A stretch of DNA of 64,000 nucleotides from Clostridiaceae bacterium (GTDB taxonomy: Bacteria > Bacillota > Clostridia > DSM-8532): assembly GCA_012728015.1 (NCBI GenBank), contig JAAYFY010000018.1, forward strand, positions 1 to 64,000, given 5' to 3'. Of the stretch, positions 3,591-40,883 are shown piece after piece (position 1 is the first letter of the stretch; each line of letters starts with the position of its first letter). A program made the position numbers and the translations under genes. Below the pieces are notes generated by a model. That model was not told the DNA's origin. It was given only the letters and a program-made list of their open reading frames with translations, and did not search any database.

Positions 3591-3647
3591 TGATATTGCC
3601 AGAATATAATATAATTCAGTTGTACGGGAAAGAGCCTATTTGGCCTT

Positions 3648-5215
3648 TCATGGCGCGGCGTATTCTGTTCTGTTCCGGCCTGAGACCTTGGCTTTATACA
3701 GCAATTTATCAGCCATGGCAACCACATCTTCCGGTGAAATTTCGGCTGAGTATCTCACCGTAGTAACACCAATGCTGGCGGTGACAAACTCCGAAACCGA
3801 AGATTTTTCATGCTCAATCTTCAGATTGTGAATCCTGTGCCTGATCTTTTCGGCTATTGAAACAGCCGCCTGGATATCAGTATCAGGCAGAATGCAGGCA
3901 AATTCCTCCCCGCCATAACGGGCAGCCAGGTCAACCGACCGGGTTACGCAACCGGTCAGTACCTTGCCGATTTGACGCAGGCATTCGTCCCCCATCACAT
4001 GGCAGTAGTAATCGTTGTATTCCTTGAAATGGTCTATATCAAGCATGATGACCGATAATTCAGAGTTCGAACGCCTGAGCCTGTAATACTCATGTTCCAG
4101 GACAGAATCAAAGAATCTTCTGTTGGCAATCCCCGTCAGGCTGTCAGTGTTACTTAATTCCATAAGCTGGCGGTTGGTTTTCTCCAATCACAACTCCATC
4201 TCTTTTCTTTCGTTTATGTCGGTTAACATGGCAAAAGACCCTTCAAACTTTCCTGAATCATCGATAAGGGCCTTTGCGGAAACCAGGAACCAGTGGATCT
4301 GTCCGTCCTTCCTTTTCAGATAGCATTCATAAACCGAATCTTTGCCTTGTTTCCTGAGGGACGCCTGATTATCGTAAACATCAGTTGGTTTTCAGGGAAG
4401 AAGGATGCATATGATCTCCCAAGCATTTCATCAACTGTATACCCAAGCATGGAAGCCATATTCTCATTGGCAAAGGTGATTTTGTAATCTCCGTCGAAAA
4501 TCACAATTCCTTCAATGGCGGTTTCCACGATTTTTTGGAACATGGATTCACTTTTTTCCAGTGATTTTTGAATCTCAAGCACCTGCATATCGCTTTTTTC
4601 CTTGGCAAGCATCAGCAAAATAAAGCCGCTTACAAGGAAAATGAAAAAGCTTGTCCCGGGAATCACAGTGTATACGAAGCTGAGGTGCATGCCTAAGGAG
4701 AATTCAGTAAAACCTAAGCAGATAATGGCGCAAAACAGGAATACCGAGCCGGCTATGCAATAGCATACAGCCAGCAGCGATTTCAGCGAGAATCTCATTT
4801 CAGATTTTCTGAACAAGAACAGACTTGTCAGAAAGTAGAAGCAGCTTTGGATAAGAAAAACCAGTCCTGTCTGACGGGGTATGGACAAAAATATGGTTAG
4901 TGAGCATGCCAGTATTACCCCTGCTGATGTCAGGATGTGAAGCCAGCGCCGTACAAGCTTTCCGGAGAGGTATCGAACAGCCCAGGCTTCATAGGCGCAG
5001 CCCAGCAATAATATAATGAAAGCAAGCGAGGTTAGGCCATCAAAGGTATGGGTCCGGAAGTAAAGTATCAAAGAACCGGTACCCTGAAGGATCTTGGCCG
5101 TGCCCCAGAAAGGGACTTTTTGTGGGTTGTTTTTATTCAGCTTAAAAACTGCCAACAGCAGACCATACAGGAAGGACCCCATTGCCAGCATCAGCATTAC
5201 TGTTCTCAGGTCCAC
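3648..5215 (-). pseudogene. Membrane PAS-GGDEF diguanylate cyclase, broken by a frameshift and a stop
   Basis: Read from the right, there is a membrane sensor region of about seven helices, then a PAS domain (GIVIFDGDYKITFAN, LGYTVDEMLG), then GGDEF. Reading frame is lost near 4385, after FFPENQ: PAS homology continues in another frame (DVYDNQASLRKQGKDSVYEC, DGQIHWFLVSAKAL). An in-frame TGA at 4188-4190 then separates NERKEMEL from LEKTNRQLMELS. The GGDEF part itself is intact: RYGGEEF catalytic loop, with an RxxD inhibitory site five residues before it. The likely original start is GTG 5215 (VDLRTVMLML); a longer frame opens at 5284. The detached GGDEF piece could still start at TTG 4187 but has no clear ribosome binding site. 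Two independent lesions favour real decay over a single sequencing error. Confidence 0.85.
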
Positions 5216-5258
5216 AGATAACCCCCCGGAATTCACCCATACTTTGATAAAACCCTTT

Positions 5259-5282
5259 GGCTCCGCAAGCCTTGGCGGAGCC
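5259..5282. other. Hairpin before the broken GGDEF gene
   Basis: Perfect 8-bp inverted repeat (5259-5266 and 5275-5282) around an 8-base loop, about 45 bases before the likely GTG start. I compared it by eye with the c-di-GMP-I and -II riboswitch cores and saw no match. Its role is unknown. Confidence 0.5.
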
Positions 5283-5382
5283 AACTACCGGAATATATAC
5301 TATTATAAAACAGCCCGACGGATTGTTAAATAGAAGTTTGCTTTTTTCCATTTTGTCGGCATCCCTTTTAGGGTTACCGCCG

Positions 5383-9483: not shown

Positions 9484-11229
9484 TTACATCCTGGCAAGCA
9501 CTGCGCCGCTGACCGGCCCAAGGGTAAGCTTAATAATACCCCCTTCGGAGCTGAGGATGGTTCCGCTTAAGAGATCTGTCACCTGCTGGCTGTAAGTCAG
9601 GCAGGGAAGGGATACCCGCTGCATATAGTCGCTGTTGTTGAGAACAACTGCGATCTTCCTTTCACTGCTGTATCGTGAGAAAGCATAGATGCCCTTTCCA
9701 TTATCCTTCAGAATAGTTTTGACGCCTCCCGTAAATTCATCAATATATTCCTTTCTTATGGCAATTATTTTCTTATAAAATGCGGTAAGTTCAGCCGTTT
9801 GCGGGGTGTCGTCCCAAACCATGGCCTGCCGGTACTCCTCTTCTTTCGATCCGGATATCCCCTTTTCATCCCCGGCCAGGATCGACGGAATGCCCTCCCA
9901 GCATATCTGGAAAAGCGCGGCCAGCTTAAGACGCCTGGTGTCCCCATCGCAAAAATGGAGGAAGCGCGGCACATCATGTGAGTCCAAAAGATTCATCTGG
10001 ACCTTGGTGACAGGACTTTTGTAGCGCATGCGCATATACCCGAGGCGGTTGTCGAACTCGTCCACACTGATCTCGTTTTTCGCGAAGAAAGCCTTGCATA
10101 TATCGGCAAACCGGTAATTCATGGCCGAATCAAACTGGTCGCCGCCCAGCCATTGCTCCGCATCCTCCCATACTTCCGCGATGAGGAATGCTTCCGGGTT
10201 TTCCGCCCTTACCGCGCGCCTGAAGGATCTCCAAAAATCATGGTTTACCTCGTTGGCTACATCAAGTCGCCATCCGTCAATTCCGGCTTCACGGATCCAG
10301 AAGCGCCCCACATTGCACAGGTATTCCGCTACTTCCGGGTTTCCGGTATTCAGCTTTGGCATCTGCCTTACATATGCGAAAGCGGCGTAATTCAGGTTCC
10401 GGGTATCGACGGGAAACTCCAGGCGGTAAAACCAATCCTTATAGGCAGATGATTCGCCCTTCTCGCAGACATCCCTGAAGGCGAAAAAATTCCAGCCGCA
10501 ATGGTTGAAGACCCCGTCCAGGATGACGCGGATGCCCATTTTGTGGCAAGAGGCAACCAGCTTTCGGAAATCCTCCATGGTGCCAAAGCATGGATCAATG
10601 GAATAATAGTCAATGGTATCGTATTTATGATAGGAACCCGCGGTAAATATGGGATTAAGATAAATGCAGTTGATTCCAAGGTCCTTTATGTAATCCAGGT
10701 TCTCAACTATACCCCAAAGGGTGCCTCCCAGCCTGCTCTCGCACAGGGCTCCGCATGGAGCAGTCCTTACATAGCCCTTTCCTGATATGTACCTTTTCCC
10801 GCTGGCGAAGCTGTCGGGGAACACCTGGTAGATAATAGCTTTTTTTGCCCACTCTGGGACCGACACGATATCCTCGCGGCGGATATAGGGGAACTGGAAG
10901 TACCTGCTTCTGTCTGAGGCCGGTGAGAGGGTGAACTCCCCGGAGTAATAGAATACATCCTCATTTCCATCGCTCAGCCAGAAATAGTAGCAGATGCGCG
11001 AAATATCAACCGTGAAATTAGCCTCAAAATAGTCAAACAACCTGTCCGACGCGACAAGTTCCATTGCCACGACGGTCATCTTTTCCCTGTGATTAGCCCT
11101 GTCCCCATAGAACAACATGCATTGCCTGATATCATCCCTGGCGGTCCGAAGTCTCAAACAGAGCCGGGTTTCAGACAGTGCAAAGGCATATGCCGAATCG
11201 GGCATATGAAATATGGCATGCTTATTCAT
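9484..11229 (-). CDS. GH13 cyclomaltodextrinase / neopullulanase-like enzyme, intracellular
   Basis: An alpha-amylase family enzyme without a signal peptide, so probably cytoplasmic, acting on imported maltodextrins, cyclodextrins or pullulan fragments. An N-terminal beta-sandwich of about 120 residues (CBM34-like position) precedes the barrel. Catalytic residues are seen: nucleophile Asp323 in GWRLDVANE, acid/base Glu352 in IAEVWE, and Asp419 in LLDSHD. ATG 11229 is preferred over 11247 because GGAGG lies seven bases before it (581 residues), and the upstream ATG overlaps a LacI-type operator. It is divergent from the maltodextrin importer operon, which fits joint regulation. Substrate choice among cyclomaltodextrinase, maltogenic amylase and neopullulanase is open. 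Confidence 0.93.
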   Translation of the reverse strand: MNKHAIFHMPDSAYAFALSETRLCLRLRTARDDIRQCMLFYGDRANHREKMTVVAMELVASDRLFDYFEANFTVDISRICYYFWLSDGNEDVFYYSGEFTLSPASDRSRYFQFPYIRREDIVSVPEWAKKAIIYQVFPDSFASGKRYISGKGYVRTAPCGALCESRLGGTLWGIVENLDYIKDLGINCIYLNPIFTAGSYHKYDTIDYYSIDPCFGTMEDFRKLVASCHKMGIRVILDGVFNHCGWNFFAFRDVCEKGESSAYKDWFYRLEFPVDTRNLNYAAFAYVRQMPKLNTGNPEVAEYLCNVGRFWIREAGIDGWRLDVANEVNHDFWRSFRRAVRAENPEAFLIAEVWEDAEQWLGGDQFDSAMNYRFADICKAFFAKNEISVDEFDNRLGYMRMRYKSPVTKVQMNLLDSHDVPRFLHFCDGDTRRLKLAALFQICWEGIPSILAGDEKGISGSKEEEYRQAMVWDDTPQTAELTAFYKKIIAIRKEYIDEFTGGVKTILKDNGKGIYAFSRYSSERKIAVVLNNSDYMQRVSLPCLTYSQQVTDLLSGTILSSEGGIIKLTLGPVSGAVLARM

Positions 11230-11248
11230 GAAAAAACCTCCCGCCATG

Positions 11249-11258
11249 CAAGCGCTTG
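11249..11258. promoter_or_regulatory. LacI-family operator upstream of the GH13 gene
   Basis: Perfect palindrome CAAGCGCTTG with the central CG and flanking AA/TT typical of LacI/GalR-family sites, 20 bases before the GH13 start. The LacI repressor encoded at 16719-17744 is the natural candidate; CcpA is the alternative. Confidence 0.7.
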
Positions 11259-11445
11259 TCTAAATCTCTTGGTTTTCCTTATGCAGAGTTTATGCTAAAG
11301 CGCAATGAATTTATGAATAACGGGCAATAAGGCATTGCGGCAATGCTGCCGCTTGGCTCGCAAAGCAGCGCTGACAAGCTGAAATTGCGTGTTCTACCTG
11401 TCTTCCCATCATCTTTTTTCAGGGAAATGCATATTATGTATGGAA

Positions 11446-11459
11446 TGCAAACGATTGCT
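11446..11459. promoter_or_regulatory. LacI-family operator upstream of the maltodextrin ABC operon
   Basis: TGCAAACGATTGCT fits the A-A-N-C-G-N-T-T core of LacI-family sites and lies 43 bases before the binding-protein start. A possible -10 box TATTAT is at 11432-11437, so the site would lie over the transcription start, as a repressor site often does. Confidence 0.65.
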
Positions 11460-11501
11460 CTTACGAGGCAGGATCGTGAATGATATTTGGGAGGAATCGA
11501 A

Positions 11502-12713
11502 ATGAAAAAGCGAGGTATTTTGGCATTAGCGCTGGCAATCCTTATGGTTGCGGCCGCACTGGGAGGTTGCGGACAGGAAGCCGCTTCGGGGAAAAAGGAA
11601 CCTGTCACACTGAAGGTATGGGAATCGGATGGCGTTGAAAAGCAGTTCATCGAAGAAATGGCCAAATCCTACATGGATGAAAACCCACATGTAACCATCA
11701 TTGTTGAACCGGTCGCCCATACCGATGCAGCCCAGAGATTGCAGTTGGACGGACCCGCGGGTGTGGGGGCCGATGTGTTTGCGGCACCCCATGACAAACT
11801 GGGAGAAATGATCGTAGGCGGACTTATTTTGGAGAACACCCATGCAGACCAGTTAAAAGACACTTTTGTCCAGGCTTCTCTCGATGCCACATCTTATGGT
11901 GGCAAGCTTTACGGGTATCCAACAGCTATTGAAACCTACGCCCTGTTTTACAACAAAGCTCTGCTTTCCGATCCGCCCGACACATGGAAAGATGTGGAGG
12001 AGTTTGCCAAGACCTTTAACAAGCCCCAGGAAGGTAAGTATGCCATCGCCTGGGATGTGGGCAACGCCTACTATTCCTACATATTCCTAAGCGCGTTCGG
12101 CGCGGACCTTTTCGGCCCGGGCGGGACAGACAAAGACAAGCACATGGTAAACAGCCCGGAGGCTGTTAAGGGGCTTAGCTATTTCCAGAACTTCAGAAAA
12201 CAGTACCTGGATGTTGCCCAAGCGGACCTGGCCGGTGATTTCATGAATGCGGGTTTCCAGAACGGCACTATTGCCATGGTGATTACAGGACCCTGGAGCA
12301 TACAGGGATATCGTGACGCTGGCGTCAATTTTGGCGTTGCACCCCTGCCCAAGTTCGAAGGGATGTCTGAACCGCCCGCCTCATTCTCAGGTATTCGTGC
12401 AATGTATGTTTCCTCGTTCACCAAGTATCCCGAGGAAGCACACAAGTTTGCCATCTATCTCACCTCGAAGGAAGCTTTGCTGAAACGCTACGAGATAACC
12501 GCCCAGATTCCTCCGCGCAAAGATGTCAATATATCGGATGACGCCCATGCAGGCATCCTTGATCAATTCGCGTATTCAAAGCCCATGCCCAGCATACCCG
12601 CTATGAATTTCTACTGGCCCGCGATGGCATCCGCCTATTCCAACATATGGAATGGTAATGATATAAAGACTGAGCTGGATACGGCGGCATCAGCCATTGA
12701 AGCCGCAGAGTAA
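11502..12713 (+). CDS. Maltodextrin-type ABC transporter substrate-binding lipoprotein
   Basis: Extracellular solute-binding lipoprotein (403 residues) that captures malto-oligosaccharides for the two permeases downstream. The signal peptide ends at lipobox LGGC, and the mature domain has the MalE/MdxE pattern: LKVWESDG near the N-terminus, PAGVGADVFAAPHDKLGEM, YGYPTAIETYALFYNK and GPWSIQGYRDAG. ATG 11502 has GGGAGG nine bases upstream; an upstream in-frame ATG at 11487 is poorer. It is the first gene of a binding protein-permease-permease-amylase-repressor operon. Sugar specificity rests on the family pattern and the amylase neighbours. Confidence 0.93.
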   Translation: MKKRGILALALAILMVAAALGGCGQEAASGKKEPVTLKVWESDGVEKQFIEEMAKSYMDENPHVTIIVEPVAHTDAAQRLQLDGPAGVGADVFAAPHDKLGEMIVGGLILENTHADQLKDTFVQASLDATSYGGKLYGYPTAIETYALFYNKALLSDPPDTWKDVEEFAKTFNKPQEGKYAIAWDVGNAYYSYIFLSAFGADLFGPGGTDKDKHMVNSPEAVKGLSYFQNFRKQYLDVAQADLAGDFMNAGFQNGTIAMVITGPWSIQGYRDAGVNFGVAPLPKFEGMSEPPASFSGIRAMYVSSFTKYPEEAHKFAIYLTSKEALLKRYEITAQIPPRKDVNISDDAHAGILDQFAYSKPMPSIPAMNFYWPAMASAYSNIWNGNDIKTELDTAASAIEAAE

Positions 12714-16718: not shown

Positions 16719-17744
16719 GTGCGCGTGACCATCAACGACGTGGCCAGGGCCGCGGGGGTTTCACCATCGACGGTATCCCGTGTCCTGTCTGATCACCCCA
16801 AAATAAGTCCAAATACCAAACAGCGGGTCAGAAAGGCTATAAAGGAGCTGAATTACCATCCCAATACCATAGCCAGAAGCCTGGCACGGAACACGACGCA
16901 TACCATCGGGGTTATTCTGAATACCGAGGCCGATCTTCTCATGCGAAACACGTTCTTTATCCAGGCTCTGACAGGGGTAAGCGTTTATGCCCGGGAGAAA
17001 GGCTATCATGTGATGTTTGCCTTCAACAAGAATGAAGATGAAGACCTGGCCATCGCAAAAAGCTATTTATCGGGAAGAAGCGTGGATGGCATTATCCTGT
17101 TCACCTCCCGGATTCGTGACAGATGCATAGAATACCTGAAAAAAAACAGGTTCCCCTTCTCGGTAATCGGCCGGCCTGATGATGCGCAGGATGTGCTCTG
17201 GGTTGATAATGACAATTTCCATGCCACTTACCAGGTGACCAATTACCTGATTGGCAGGGGGCACTCGGTTATCGGCTTTATGGGGGGCCCACCTTCCCTG
17301 AGGGTTTCGGTCGACCGGTACGAGGGCTTTAAAAAGGCCATGTCGGTCCATGATTTATCTCTTAACAAGGAGATCATCCATGATAACGGGGATTTTTCAG
17401 AAGAATACGGCTACGACTGCATGGGGAAAATGCTTGAGGTTTCAGCCCGGAGTGGCCGTATGCCCGATGCCGTTGTCACATGCGATGATATGCAGGCCAT
17501 CGGCGCACTGAAGGCCATGGAGGTGCATGGCATAAGAAACATCTCTATAATCGGGTTCAATAATACACCCCTTGGTTATTTTCAAAATCCGAGGCTGACA
17601 TCGGTGGATGTCAACGCCGATAAACTGGGTTATTACTCTGCAAAACTCCTGGTTGACTGCCTGGAAAAAAACAGGGATGCCCCCAGGCATTACATTGTGC
17701 CCACCGTGTTGGTTGAGAGGGAATCGGTAGTTTACGGGAGCTGA
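16719..17744 (+). CDS. LacI-family transcriptional repressor, maltose-regulator type
   Basis: DNA-binding sugar sensor of 341 residues. The N-terminal helix-turn-helix TINDVARAAGVSPSTVSRVL and hinge helix NTIARSLARN are intact. The periplasmic-binding-like core carries HTIGVILNTEAD, VDGIILFTSR, VVTCDDMQAIGAL and ISIIGFNNTPL. The start is GTG 16719, with AGAGG about ten bases upstream. As the last gene of the maltodextrin operon it is likely autoregulated through the operators at 11249 and 11446. The inducer is presumably a malto-oligosaccharide, inferred from context. Confidence 0.92.
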   Translation: MRVTINDVARAAGVSPSTVSRVLSDHPKISPNTKQRVRKAIKELNYHPNTIARSLARNTTHTIGVILNTEADLLMRNTFFIQALTGVSVYAREKGYHVMFAFNKNEDEDLAIAKSYLSGRSVDGIILFTSRIRDRCIEYLKKNRFPFSVIGRPDDAQDVLWVDNDNFHATYQVTNYLIGRGHSVIGFMGGPPSLRVSVDRYEGFKKAMSVHDLSLNKEIIHDNGDFSEEYGYDCMGKMLEVSARSGRMPDAVVTCDDMQAIGALKAMEVHGIRNISIIGFNNTPLGYFQNPRLTSVDVNADKLGYYSAKLLVDCLEKNRDAPRHYIVPTVLVERESVVYGS

Positions 17745-26415: not shown

Positions 26416-28803
26416 TTATTCACCTGATTTTTTCAGTTTGGCCTGTTTGTCTTCATACAGGGCTTTATCCGCTTCCTTCATCAGGTCTTCAAAAGAATCG
26501 GAGCTCTCGGGGTTATAATAGGCAAACCCGAGGCTGATAGACAGTTGGTAGGGCTTCTTTGACAGCTCGTTATGGAGGTCGCAATACCTCTGTATCCTGT
26601 TTCTTATATCATCTTCGTCCTTCCTGGACGCGCCCGAGATGATCACCGTGAATTCGTCCCCGCCAAGACGGCCGATGATATCGGTGTTGCGGAAGGCCTT
26701 GTTAAGTATTTGGGCGGTGCTTGCAATGGCATAGTCGCCCTCACTGTGGCCGAACTGGTCGTTGATCCTCTTTAGGCCGTCCATATCGGCAAAGAGGAGG
26801 AGAAAAGTCGTACTATTCTTTCTGGCGGTTTCAAAGTACTCGTTTCCAAGTTTCATAAATCCCCGGCGGTTATATAACTGGGTCAGTTCATCGCGGATGG
26901 ATTGCAGGTGAAGCTGCTCATTGTAATAGCTCAGATCCCTCAAAGCCTGTTTCAGCTGTCTTTCCACTTCTTTTCTCTTGGCTATCTCTTCCTTGAGATT
27001 CTTATTACTTTCAGAAAGTTCCTTTGTCCTTTCCCTGACCTGTATTTCCAGATCCGCTGCCTGTTTGGTGATCCTCTCTATGAGCATGGTACCCTTTAAA
27101 GACACACTAAGCCCGTACCGGATGATCTCATAGTTCTTGTTAATGGTGGCATCATAATCCAGTATGACGTAACCCATCTTGTTGTTTCCCTGATGGAGCA
27201 CCTGTACAACGAGGCTGAATCTGTCCTTATACAATTCTTCAAGGAAAGGCTCGGGAAGAAGATCCAGGGTGTTGAACACCATACCCCGGCCGCCTTTCTG
27301 GTAGCAGGTCTTGTCTGTCATGGCCAGGATCAGGCGCGATTTGTCCAGCGGGTTGTCCTCGTCTTCAAACAGGGCTATGTAGCAGGCATGTATGTCAAGC
27401 AGGGGCAGCAGTTGGCAGGCTGTCTTAAGCTGGCTCTCATAATCAAGGCTGGCCAGGAGCGCCTCTCCTAAACGCTCTGTGTTTTCGCCCAGGAGGGGAT
27501 TGGATATGGAGCGGTTGGATGCCGCGTTTTGGAAGGTATCAAAAATGAATATCGTGGCGGCATGCAGGAGGTTTTCGGCCCGTATTACTTCTTCCCTGGT
27601 TGCGAGGCTGTTCATGACTGTTTTCCGAATAGCGGGAAGTATGTCCTGTATAAACAGCCAATCAATCTTGTTTTCGGAACACCAGAGGATGAACCTGTGG
27701 ATGGACATTACGAACTTGTCCTTGCTTCCATTCAGATATTCCTCGAAGAATGACTCCAGGATCTTCCTTTCCTGGCCCAGCAGGCTTTTCTGCACGATAA
27801 GACTATCGCTTATATCCAATGTATCGTTTATTTGCTCCAGCACAGCCATGATCTGGTCTATCTGCTCCTGGACATTAATGGAGTCTTTTTTGAGATCGGG
27901 AACGACATAAGCCTTTTTAACAACAGACGGGACACATCCACAGGATGATCTTAGAATCATCCTGGACGGTATCTCCACATGAAGGGGTATATCCCGCCCT
28001 TCCAGTATGTTCAGGAGCATTTCTCCGGCTTTCCGGGTCTGGTCGTAAAAATTCTGACGAACAGTCGTCAAGCCGTATACCCTGCCATTCTCGGTGTCGT
28101 CAAAACCGGTTATGGGAAGGGTAAAAACAAGGTTTTTATTATTCTTGTTAAACTCGAGAAGGGCTCCCATCGCCATGTTGTCGTTGGAACTGACCAGCGC
28201 GTCAAACCGGATGTTTTCCCTTCTGAATGTCCGCACTGCTTCAGAGCCGGAGTCGAAGCGGAAATCCCCGTTATATATCAGGCTGGGATCAAACTCAATC
28301 TGATGGGCTGCCAGGGAGTCGCAATACGCCTGGAAACGAATAAAGGCTTCTTTACAGGGCGGACCTTTAATAATGGCTATTCTCCTGTATCCATGCTCTT
28401 CGATGAGATGGTCAACAACCTGGCGCATACCTGTATAATTGTCTATGGTTACAGACGGGAAATTTTCAAACCTCTCGCCCACAGTGATAATGGGCAGATC
28501 GTAGCCCTCAAGCAGCTTCACTATGGAGTTGGAATCGCTGTAAACACCAATGGCAGTAGTAGGGACAACCAGTCCGTCAACCTTGTTCTTGTCTATGAAT
28601 TTCAACAGTATGTTGCGGCACCTGTCCCATTCATAGGGGGAATCAACCCTGCCTGTGACAAAACAGATGACATTGATGTTGTTTTCCTTTGCAAAGTCTG
28701 AAAGACCCGAGAGAAGCAGTGACTGATAGTAATGGCTTTCTCCCCAGCTTGTTATCCAGTCGATAAGAATTCCGAAGGTATAGCTTTTTTTCTTTCCTGG
28801 CAT
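26416..28803 (-). CDS. LacI-type sugar-binding sensor fused to a diguanylate cyclase
   Basis: A 795-residue protein with no signal peptide, membrane helix or DNA-binding helix-turn-helix, so it should be cytoplasmic. Residues 1-290 form a LacI/GalR-type ligand-binding domain (YTFGILIDWITSW, KVDGLVVPTTA, ALVSSNDNMAMGALLE, ITGFDDTE, MILRSSCGCVP). A helical region and a GAF-like domain (about 455-590) follow, then a coiled coil (about 595-640) and GGDEF (about 645-790). The catalytic loop RLGGDEF (Gly714 on) is intact, and an RxxD inhibitory site (RNTD) lies five residues before it. It probably makes c-di-GMP in response to an intracellular sugar or similar ligand; the ligand is unknown. GGGAG lies upstream of the ATG. 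Confidence 0.9.
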   Translation of the reverse strand: MPGKKKSYTFGILIDWITSWGESHYYQSLLLSGLSDFAKENNINVICFVTGRVDSPYEWDRCRNILLKFIDKNKVDGLVVPTTAIGVYSDSNSIVKLLEGYDLPIITVGERFENFPSVTIDNYTGMRQVVDHLIEEHGYRRIAIIKGPPCKEAFIRFQAYCDSLAAHQIEFDPSLIYNGDFRFDSGSEAVRTFRRENIRFDALVSSNDNMAMGALLEFNKNNKNLVFTLPITGFDDTENGRVYGLTTVRQNFYDQTRKAGEMLLNILEGRDIPLHVEIPSRMILRSSCGCVPSVVKKAYVVPDLKKDSINVQEQIDQIMAVLEQINDTLDISDSLIVQKSLLGQERKILESFFEEYLNGSKDKFVMSIHRFILWCSENKIDWLFIQDILPAIRKTVMNSLATREEVIRAENLLHAATIFIFDTFQNAASNRSISNPLLGENTERLGEALLASLDYESQLKTACQLLPLLDIHACYIALFEDEDNPLDKSRLILAMTDKTCYQKGGRGMVFNTLDLLPEPFLEELYKDRFSLVVQVLHQGNNKMGYVILDYDATINKNYEIIRYGLSVSLKGTMLIERITKQAADLEIQVRERTKELSESNKNLKEEIAKRKEVERQLKQALRDLSYYNEQLHLQSIRDELTQLYNRRGFMKLGNEYFETARKNSTTFLLLFADMDGLKRINDQFGHSEGDYAIASTAQILNKAFRNTDIIGRLGGDEFTVIISGASRKDEDDIRNRIQRYCDLHNELSKKPYQLSISLGFAYYNPESSDSFEDLMKEADKALYEDKQAKLKKSGE

Positions 28804-29009
28804 GAAACCATCTCCCGGACTGTATATGGGCTTACCGGATCAATGCCGGTATCGCTGATTTTGGACTGCAGTAATCCAAAAGATGTTATAAAAATGATGC
28901 AGAATCGCAACTCTTTCTTATTACTTCTTACCACTTTTGGTTGTCAGGAAATCTATTTTTGTATCATTAATTACTAATTTATTATAGCATATAGTTGGCT
29001 GATACGCCC

Positions 29010-38920: not shown

Positions 38921-40609
38921 TTAGTATGACTTGCCGTGCTTGCCTGACTTGTGCAGCACCTTCTGGTTTTCCTTGCATATATACATGGACTTGTCTGCCC
39001 GCTCAAAGACATCATTCAAATCCTTGTCATGTTCTTTGTTGAAGCTTGCGAGGCCGTAAGCGATGCTCATATGGAAGGTTGCGCCGCTTTCATTAAAAGC
39101 GGCTATCTTTTTGTTAAGGGTATCCAACTCCACCTGGATAAAATAAGGCTCAATATTGGTGACGAGTACAACAAACTCGTCACCGCCTATCCGGAATATT
39201 TCCCCCAGCTGTCCAAGGGTTTCCTTGATGAGGCGGGAACCATCAATGATCAGCTGGTCACCTTCTCTGTGGCCAAAAGTGTCATTAACTTTTTTCAGAC
39301 CGTTGATGTCCAGTATGACCAGGTGAATGGATGAGTAGGAATCAAGCTTTTCATTGATTGCCGCGATCCTTTCATCGAATGACCTGCGGTTCTTGAAGCC
39401 CGTCAGTGTGTCGGTAAAGGCAAGGGACATGAGGATATCATGGCTGATCTTCTCTTCATGGGTCAGGAATATGTGGTGGGCCAGGGATGCGGTGGTTGTA
39501 ATAATGAAGATAAAAAGCCCGTACTGGTATATCACCGGCTTCACAACCCATGGCAGGGACAGGAAATAATACCTCAGGACATCGGCTGCGATGGATATGC
39601 TGAGCAGGATGCAGCCCAAGAAAAAGAGTTTGGCGCTTTTCCTGCCGCGCCGCATTTCGGTAATGGCTGAATATACAAAGACGACGAGGCAGCTGGCAAG
39701 AAGGGAATGGAAGATTATGGCGGTATCATAAAACTCTATCCTGCCCGCCAGGTAAAGCATTGTTGCCACAAGAAAGTGGGCGGCGAAGATATGCAGAAAT
39801 CCAGTCAGCCAGTTGGCATGCTTCGGCTTGAAGGTGCTGATGACGAACGCAAGAAGCGGAATCGGCGCAAGGTACTGGGACATAAAGGAAACGCAGGTAA
39901 TGAGCAGGGGGTTTCTGATGAATACTTCCACAGTCCGGCTTTCAGCTGACATCCAGCATCCGGATAATATCACGAAGAAAGCCAGGTACAAAATATTGGG
40001 ATGCCACGAACCCGAAGCGCGCATGGACAGGAAAAAGGCAAACATGATAAATCCCAGCATGATGGCCACCACGGCAAGGAAGAGGCCGATACTGCCCAGT
40101 TTTATAATATAAAGGATATGGGAAGTAATGCTGCCTATCCGCACCTCGTTTACCATACCTGAATACTGGTTAAGGGGGGAAGAAAGGAAGATATCAAGCC
40201 GGCCTCCTCCATACCCGGATGGCAGGCTTATAAAATGGTACATGCTGCCCGGCGCCCTTTGGGGATTCCCGGGCATGTACTCATAAATAGGAATACCATT
40301 CAAATGAACGGCCGTACTCTGCTCCAACGTCCGGATCATCAGGCTGGGACTGTTATAAAACCTTACAGGCAGTGTGTTGGTAATACGAAGGGTTCTTCCC
40401 GCATAACCGCCGGGGACTTTCCCGGGGAGGCTCAGGGTGATTGTTTCATCGGAATCTATCCATGAGCAGGTCCAGCCATCGGATATGGTTATGGCTTCAT
40501 CTTGCGAAATAGGATTTACACTTCCTACTGAAGAAATGAGAATAATCAGCGCGCACATAAAAATTGCAGCCAATGCAAATAATAGAGGAGCTATACGTAT
40601 TTTGCCCAA
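38921..40609 (-). CDS. Membrane-bound diguanylate cyclase with extracellular sensor domain
   Basis: Predicted c-di-GMP synthase anchored in the membrane. Order: one N-terminal helix (APLLFALAAIFMCALIILIS); an extracellular beta-rich sensor of about 130 residues (VHLNGIPIYEY), like 7TMR-DISM outer domains; about seven membrane helices (about 185-385); and GGDEF (about 400-555). The catalytic loop RIGGDEF (Gly475) is intact. The product-inhibition RxxD is absent, unlike the other two GGDEF proteins here. TTG 40609 with AGGTG upstream is the likely start (562 residues); an ATG at 40708 would add an AT-rich leader of doubtful meaning. Confidence 0.87.
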   Translation of the reverse strand: MGKIRIAPLLFALAAIFMCALIILISSVGSVNPISQDEAITISDGWTCSWIDSDETITLSLPGKVPGGYAGRTLRITNTLPVRFYNSPSLMIRTLEQSTAVHLNGIPIYEYMPGNPQRAPGSMYHFISLPSGYGGGRLDIFLSSPLNQYSGMVNEVRIGSITSHILYIIKLGSIGLFLAVVAIMLGFIMFAFFLSMRASGSWHPNILYLAFFVILSGCWMSAESRTVEVFIRNPLLITCVSFMSQYLAPIPLLAFVISTFKPKHANWLTGFLHIFAAHFLVATMLYLAGRIEFYDTAIIFHSLLASCLVVFVYSAITEMRRGRKSAKLFFLGCILLSISIAADVLRYYFLSLPWVVKPVIYQYGLFIFIITTTASLAHHIFLTHEEKISHDILMSLAFTDTLTGFKNRRSFDERIAAINEKLDSYSSIHLVILDINGLKKVNDTFGHREGDQLIIDGSRLIKETLGQLGEIFRIGGDEFVVLVTNIEPYFIQVELDTLNKKIAAFNESGATFHMSIAYGLASFNKEHDKDLNDVFERADKSMYICKENQKVLHKSGKHGKSY

Positions 40610-40883
40610 TCTGATCACCTGTAAGCCATCTTCGCCAAAAAATACAAAATCTACAAATAAGCATAACAAAAAGCGCGGGAATAAACAATAGACAAAAGGG
40701 ATTATCACCGGGCAGACTACAGGCGTCCCATAGACACGGTAATGTGATGTTTAGTTTTCTTCTTCCATTTTTAAGGTGTGTTTGATAGAATCATGTTATG
40801 CAAAAAGGCAAATCCGGCCAATACAGGTACAAAACCGGCGATGCGCTGCCGGCAGGCTATGGATTCGGAAGGAATGGTATGTT

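Follow-up and report, generated by a model that had tools for sequence, protein, structure and literature searches.

To our knowledge, the chemical input has been identified for few c-di-GMP enzymes. A Pfam-based census published in J Bacteriol in 2022 noted architectures in which a LacI-type Periplas_BP domain is combined with GGDEF, EAL or HD_5 domains (PMC8846402), and in this review the LacI-type Periplas_BP domains of c-di-GMP enzymes appear without validated roles (PMC8846402). A characterised LacI-type diguanylate cyclase was not found in the literature searched, nor were papers that treat Peripla_BP_3 and GGDEF together. A related design on the receiving side is PelD, a c-di-GMP receptor with a GAF domain and a degenerate GGDEF domain, which combines a dead catalytic loop with an intact I-site (PMC7112168).

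The gene described here lies in a stretch of 64,000 nucleotides of a Clostridiaceae genome, which we refer to as the window. The encoded sensor cyclase belongs to a recognised, widespread and experimentally unstudied group, and represents a real, conserved design rather than a one-off. From its domains we consider it probable that the protein is a cytoplasmic one-component diguanylate cyclase, where LacI-type ligand sensing would drive c-di-GMP output through the middle parts of the polypeptide.

Gene and domain order

The open reading frame of 795 codons (26416-28803, minus strand) begins with ATG and has exactly the boundaries first reported; its features are collected in Table 1. Pfam recognises Peripla_BP_1 (7e-13, residues 68-223) and Peripla_BP_3 (1.3e-11, residues 130-288), followed by GGDEF (1.1e-39, residues 636-789), and the NCBIfam GGDEF-domain model TIGR00254 matches the same C-terminus (1.8e-39, about 632-789). 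When residues 7-288 were searched against PDB sequences, an ancestral LacI transcription factor was the best match (3e-26) and PurR structures were also among the matches, while the C-terminal domain retrieved diguanylate cyclases (2e-23), with the thermophilic cyclase 4urs as the best GGDEF match. The sequence-only reading, which had placed a LacI/GalR-type ligand domain and a GGDEF domain in one protein and relied on a sugar-fold match for residues 1-290, is borne out on both points, the fold being matched by Pfam Peripla_BP_1/3 and the PDB LacI family over residues 7-288.

That reading had also described the protein as devoid of a helix-turn-helix (HTH) and of membrane segments, with neither hidden upstream of position 28803, and this description stands. 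No HTH family matches the protein in Pfam (PF00356 included), and a LacI-HTH search of the whole genome found none near the gene. A hidden upstream HTH can be excluded, as the open frame around the gene comprises 807 residues and so provides just 12 codons 5' of the ATG, compared to the 46 positions of the Pfam LacI HTH model. A membrane anchor was ruled out by hydropathy, the peak 19-residue value being 1.44 vs 2.59 and 2.92 in two membrane signalling proteins from the same window; by this measure the protein has neither the signal peptide nor the transmembrane helices of membrane cyclases of the CdgH/RmcA type. These results support a predicted cytoplasmic, soluble protein that combines a LacI-type sensor with a diguanylate cyclase whose motifs are intact. 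Scans for promoter and terminator consensus sequences gave no more matches than in shuffled sequence.

Table 1. Features of the sensor cyclase gene (window coordinates)
Feature	Position	Strand	Basis
LacI-type sensor diguanylate cyclase gene, 795 aa	26416..28803	(-)	ORF, domain matches
GGGAG, ribosome-binding-like, 8 nt 5' of ATG	28812..28816	(-)	direct sequence reading
LacI/GalR-type ligand-binding domain, residues 7-288	27940..28785	(-)	Pfam Peripla_BP_1/3; PDB LacI family; omega about 0.05
R156, equivalent of E. coli LacI R197, effector contact	28336..28338	(-)	K-12 LacI alignment; near-invariant in family
N207, equivalent of LacI N246	28183..28185	(-)	K-12 LacI alignment
D235, equivalent of LacI D274	28099..28101	(-)	K-12 LacI alignment
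Q250, equivalent of LacI Q291	28054..28056	(-)	K-12 LacI alignment
SCGC motif closing the sensor domain, residues 287-290, common to nearly all family members	27934..27945	(-)	family alignment
Helical region, residues 300-438, lowest conservation	27490..27906	(-)	omega 0.15-0.20 (291-438); helical in low-confidence model
Conserved middle domain, residues 439-581, distantly GAF-like, without Pfam model	27061..27489	(-)	homologue alignment, profile comparison
Coiled-coil-like signalling helix, residues 582-632	26908..27060	(-)	charged heptad-like sequence; continuous helix in low-confidence model
GGDEF diguanylate cyclase domain, residues 633-789	26437..26907	(-)	Pfam 1.1e-39, TIGR00254 1.8e-39; D673, N681, D690 present
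Inhibitory site RNTD, residues 705-708	26680..26691	(-)	sequence motif
GGDEF catalytic loop, residues 714-718	26650..26664	(-)	sequence motif
R736, third I-site arginine	26596-26598	(-)	31 residues after R705

Conservation within the genus

The gene occurs in all five genomes of the genus, although DTU059 has it as a pair of incomplete copies located at the ends of contigs. Orthologues of nearly full length share 81-85% overall identity, and the middle region has 75-82% identity in the other four genomes. Two orthologous loci preserve the gene order, with a divergent S8 peptidase gene and a convergent Gfo/Idh/MocA oxidoreductase gene flanking the sensor cyclase. Between orthologues, Nei-Gojobori omega is lowest in the sensor (0.04-0.06) and reaches 0.15-0.20 in the helical residues 291-438, with values of 0.07-0.11 in the middle domain and 0.07-0.16 in GGDEF; the synonymous sites are in part saturated. 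Every part of the sensor cyclase is thus under purifying selection, the sensor being the most constrained, and none is decaying.

The sensor domain and its candidate ligand

The N-terminal domain has the type I periplasmic-binding-like fold of LacI/GalR effector domains, together with their R/N/D contacts. Judged by this alignment, the pocket is probably functional, while the anchor residues R156, N207, D235 and Q250 are silent on the identity of the ligand. LacI-family domains bind non-sugars too, for example purines.

It is quite improbable that the LacI-type domain binds no ligand and serves as a scaffold for dimerisation, with the true input provided by the GAF-like middle domain or by redox or metal chemistry at the SCGC cysteines. 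The SCGC motif and the middle domain are indeed common to nearly all members, whatever their output, as such a reading would predict. However, the effector-contact residues are retained, the sensor shows the strongest constraint of all parts, and SCGC is also the ending of at least one ordinary HTH repressor (L079, genome G023), so that the motif is not specific to fusion proteins. A ligand-binding sensor remains our preferred interpretation.

The sensor cyclase gene is outside any sugar operon; around it are genes for a peptidase, a superoxide dismutase and an oxidoreductase. About 9 kb away, the window contains a sugar-type ABC locus that includes an alpha-amylase and its own HTH-type LacI regulator. 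In genome G095, the gene of a relative with 39% sensor identity is followed immediately, in the same orientation, by genes for a LacI repressor, SBP_bac_1 and two BPD_transp_1 ABC permeases, and because of this arrangement a sugar is our best guess and would be a plausible ligand. Sensing of a non-sugar (a nucleoside, purine, amino-sugar or cell-wall fragment), in which case the enzyme would report the general metabolic state and not the supply of plant sugars, is possible if rather unlikely: the anchors R156, N207 and D235 are shared across the LacI/GalR family as a whole, PurR is represented in the PDB results and the adjoining genes do not serve sugar uptake, but the G095 relative has the same architecture and sugar-type neighbours, and the top PDB match is the ancestral LacI factor and not PurR.

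The middle domain

Residues 439-581 form a domain common to all output-fused relatives, with 16-29% identity outside the genus. A Pfam GAF match was obtained for none of 18 members (the 795-aa protein and 17 homologues) at E-values up to 10, and the sequence profile of the domain had no credible PDB match. In a profile-profile comparison (hhalign) with a GAF_2 profile built from domains of related genomes, about 100 columns aligned in order with a probability of 65% (P 6e-5). The score of 32.1 was not reached in any of 200 column shuffles (best 19.4), and reversed and unrelated controls gave probabilities of 0.1-0.4%. On the basis of this comparison, “distantly GAF-like” seems a fair description. 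The earlier designation of the middle as “GAF-like, coiled-coil” is therefore retained in a weakened form: there are coiled-coil-like charged heptads and a weak profile similarity to GAF_2, but no GAF match in Pfam or PDB. AlphaFold, supplied with few near-identical sequences, gave a pLDDT of about 40 for the full protein and 39 for the middle domain; viral contigs contained no further relatives usable for alignment. In a survey of 398 genomes drawn from the Bacillota phylum, strong matches to the middle-domain profile were LacI-type fusion proteins, the exception being a fragment with kinase output (L140) where the contig ends before the sensor position.

The GGDEF domain and a paralogue with a degenerate loop

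The catalytic loop and the inhibitory RxxD had been reported as intact, and both are: the GGDEF loop is present, R705 and D708 constitute an RxxD I-site five residues ahead of it, and R736 completes this site with a spacing that we take to be that of PleD (31 residues from R705). Judged by the motifs, D673 occupies the position of the metal ligand, and N681 and D690 those of the guanine contacts; they presumably correspond to PleD D327, N335 and D344. The sensor cyclase is predicted to be catalytically active and to dimerise.

A paralogue encoded in the same genome, P0003 (G000:C45:20189-22114, plus strand; positions 10190-12118 of locus L020), consists of a LacI-type sensor, a GAF-like domain and a degenerate GGDEF domain in which the loop reads SCERY. 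In P0003 and its orthologues (12 sequences from two genera), R557, D560 and R588 are kept throughout and the loop consists of SCERY variants; as about 30% of the GGDEF-domain columns are invariant in this set, conservation of the I-site is by itself moderate evidence. P0003 resembles PelD in its dead catalytic loop and in its intact RxxD with a downstream arginine (PMC7112168), and by this analogy we predict P0003 to be a candidate LacI-sensing c-di-GMP receptor. PelD differs in that it has a transmembrane region and lacks a LacI-type domain (PMC7112168), and it is P0003, not the 795-aa cyclase, to which it is similar.

That the GGDEF domain of the sensor cyclase is itself a receptor for c-di-GMP, or a partner, and not a working cyclase, appears highly improbable. 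P0003 has the same domain order and has clearly lost its loop, and the C-terminal arginine of the KxxxR triphosphate contact is missing from the sensor cyclase (leucine 790). This arginine is, however, likewise absent from the solved cyclase 4urs, while D673, N681 and D690 accompany a GGDEF loop that is intact in the full-length orthologues as well. We thus favour a working cyclase.

A family of output-fused sensors

The same input, a LacI-type domain followed by the middle domain, was found in other Bacillota families of the 398-genome survey, coupled to HD-GYP, a hybrid histidine kinase with receiver and Hpt, a plain histidine kinase, GGDEF, or PAS-GGDEF-EAL. No HTH family was reported in these output-fused relatives, and the sensor cyclase, with its LacI-type domain, middle domain, cytoplasmic output and lack of an HTH, is a member of this group. 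The arrangement extends to the “EAL domain-containing protein” WP_015231178.1, encoded on a plasmid of Deinococcus peraridilitoris, which is collinear over residues 2-794 (25% identity, E 8e-52) and shares the LacI-type domain, the middle domain and GGDEF; it differs by an additional EAL domain, by ending its sensor in SCGT instead of SCGC, and by belonging to another phylum. A survey of architectures, as proposed at the outset, has thus revealed the same input on several outputs in Bacillota and Deinococcus. A module that works as an autonomous sensor would be expected to be shared in this way among GGDEF, GGDEF-EAL, HD-GYP and kinase outputs.

In an unrooted sensor-domain tree, for which the fusions were gathered by similarity to the sensor cyclase and its paralogue, all 29 output-fused sensors, from two phyla, fall on one side of a branch and 23 HTH repressors (E. 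coli LacI and 22 others, taken from related genomes) on the other. This branch has a support of 97/93 and is present in 97% of bootstrap trees. A single origin of the output-fused sensors is suggested. The sequence-only reading had viewed the protein as a repressor that dropped its DNA-binding head; the HTH is indeed absent, but such a loss could at most be an ancient event, as the fused sensors are separate from the repressors. Because fused sensors of two phyla group together and the input module includes the middle domain, the tree argues that the sensor cyclase would be one of the combinations in an old family of modular proteins and not a recent headless repressor.

In one genome (G343:C44, locus L087), three LacI-type GGDEF fusion genes are neighbours, one of them cut by the contig end, which suggests local duplication with divergence of the sensors. 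LacI-type GGDEF genes also occur amid transporter and other cellular-looking genes in three UNVERIFIED “Bacteriophage sp.” entries (MT835472.1, MT836355.1 and MT837255.1; loci L172-L174). As these look like unannotated pieces of bacterial chromosomes, a link of the architecture to phages was dropped.

Proposed mechanism and c-di-GMP context

We infer the ligand, the sign of the response and the target of the sensor cyclase along the following lines. The N-terminal clamshell would bind a small molecule inside the cell, and the most likely candidates are sugars or their derivatives that the cell produces or takes up while it uses polysaccharides. When the clamshell opens or closes, this movement would be relayed by the helical region, then by the GAF-like middle domain and finally by the coiled coil, which may set the relative orientation of the two GGDEF domains in a dimer, so that c-di-GMP synthesis would go up or down, with product inhibition at the RNTD/R736 I-site capping the output. 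The c-di-GMP would then act on receptors, for example the PilZ protein or the c-di-GMP-I riboswitch described below.

The PilZ gene (G000:C40:65111-65446, plus strand; locus L085) is part of a motility cluster, flhF-flhG-PilZ-cheB-cheA (names other than PilZ were read from the sequences), and its product is likely a c-di-GMP brake on flagella. The riboswitch (83 bits; G000:C62:71449-71533, plus strand; locus L084) is located upstream of an 81-aa ORF. Since the genome has both of these, a motility output is possible, and motility or sessility would be a plausible outcome of sensor cyclase action. Other GGDEF genes are present in the window. One, at 38921-40708 (minus strand), specifies a membrane-anchored GGDEF protein. 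Another, at 3645-5284 (minus strand), is an apparently broken membrane-PAS-GGDEF cyclase gene with its membrane/PAS and GGDEF parts in different frames and a TGA directly ahead of the GGDEF reading frame, attributable to a pseudogene or an assembly error.

A more far-reaching idea, which we raise tentatively and regard as unlikely in its full form, is that the LacI-type domain and the unmodelled middle domain constitute a general plug-in sensor of intracellular metabolites for c-di-GMP synthases, hydrolases and kinases, and that a two-protein circuit exists in the genus, in which the sensor cyclase would make c-di-GMP while the paralogue with dead loop and intact I-site would read both c-di-GMP and its own ligand. 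As soluble sensors with ligands that might be found by routine screening, members of the LacI-type family could provide a direct link between intracellular nutrient levels and c-di-GMP. A description of the shared middle domain, which is without a Pfam model, would improve the annotation of a modular signalling family.

Comparison with known systems

The architectures of the 2022 census share with the sensor cyclase the joining of a LacI-type binding domain to c-di-GMP enzymes, and that review was published without analysis of mechanism, middle domain, solubility or lineage (PMC8846402). Repressors of the LacI/GalR type, among them E. coli LacI and the product of 16719-17744 in the window, have the effector-binding fold and the anchor residues in common with the sensor cyclase, but they carry the LacI helix-turn-helix, have no GGDEF domain and are separate in the tree. 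CdgH, a diguanylate cyclase of Vibrio cholerae, is similar in placing clamshell binding domains ahead of a GGDEF output (PMC5431781). Those of CdgH are periplasmic, amino-acid binding PBPb domains (PMC5431781), whereas the sensor cyclase is a predicted soluble protein with a clamshell of the LacI type.
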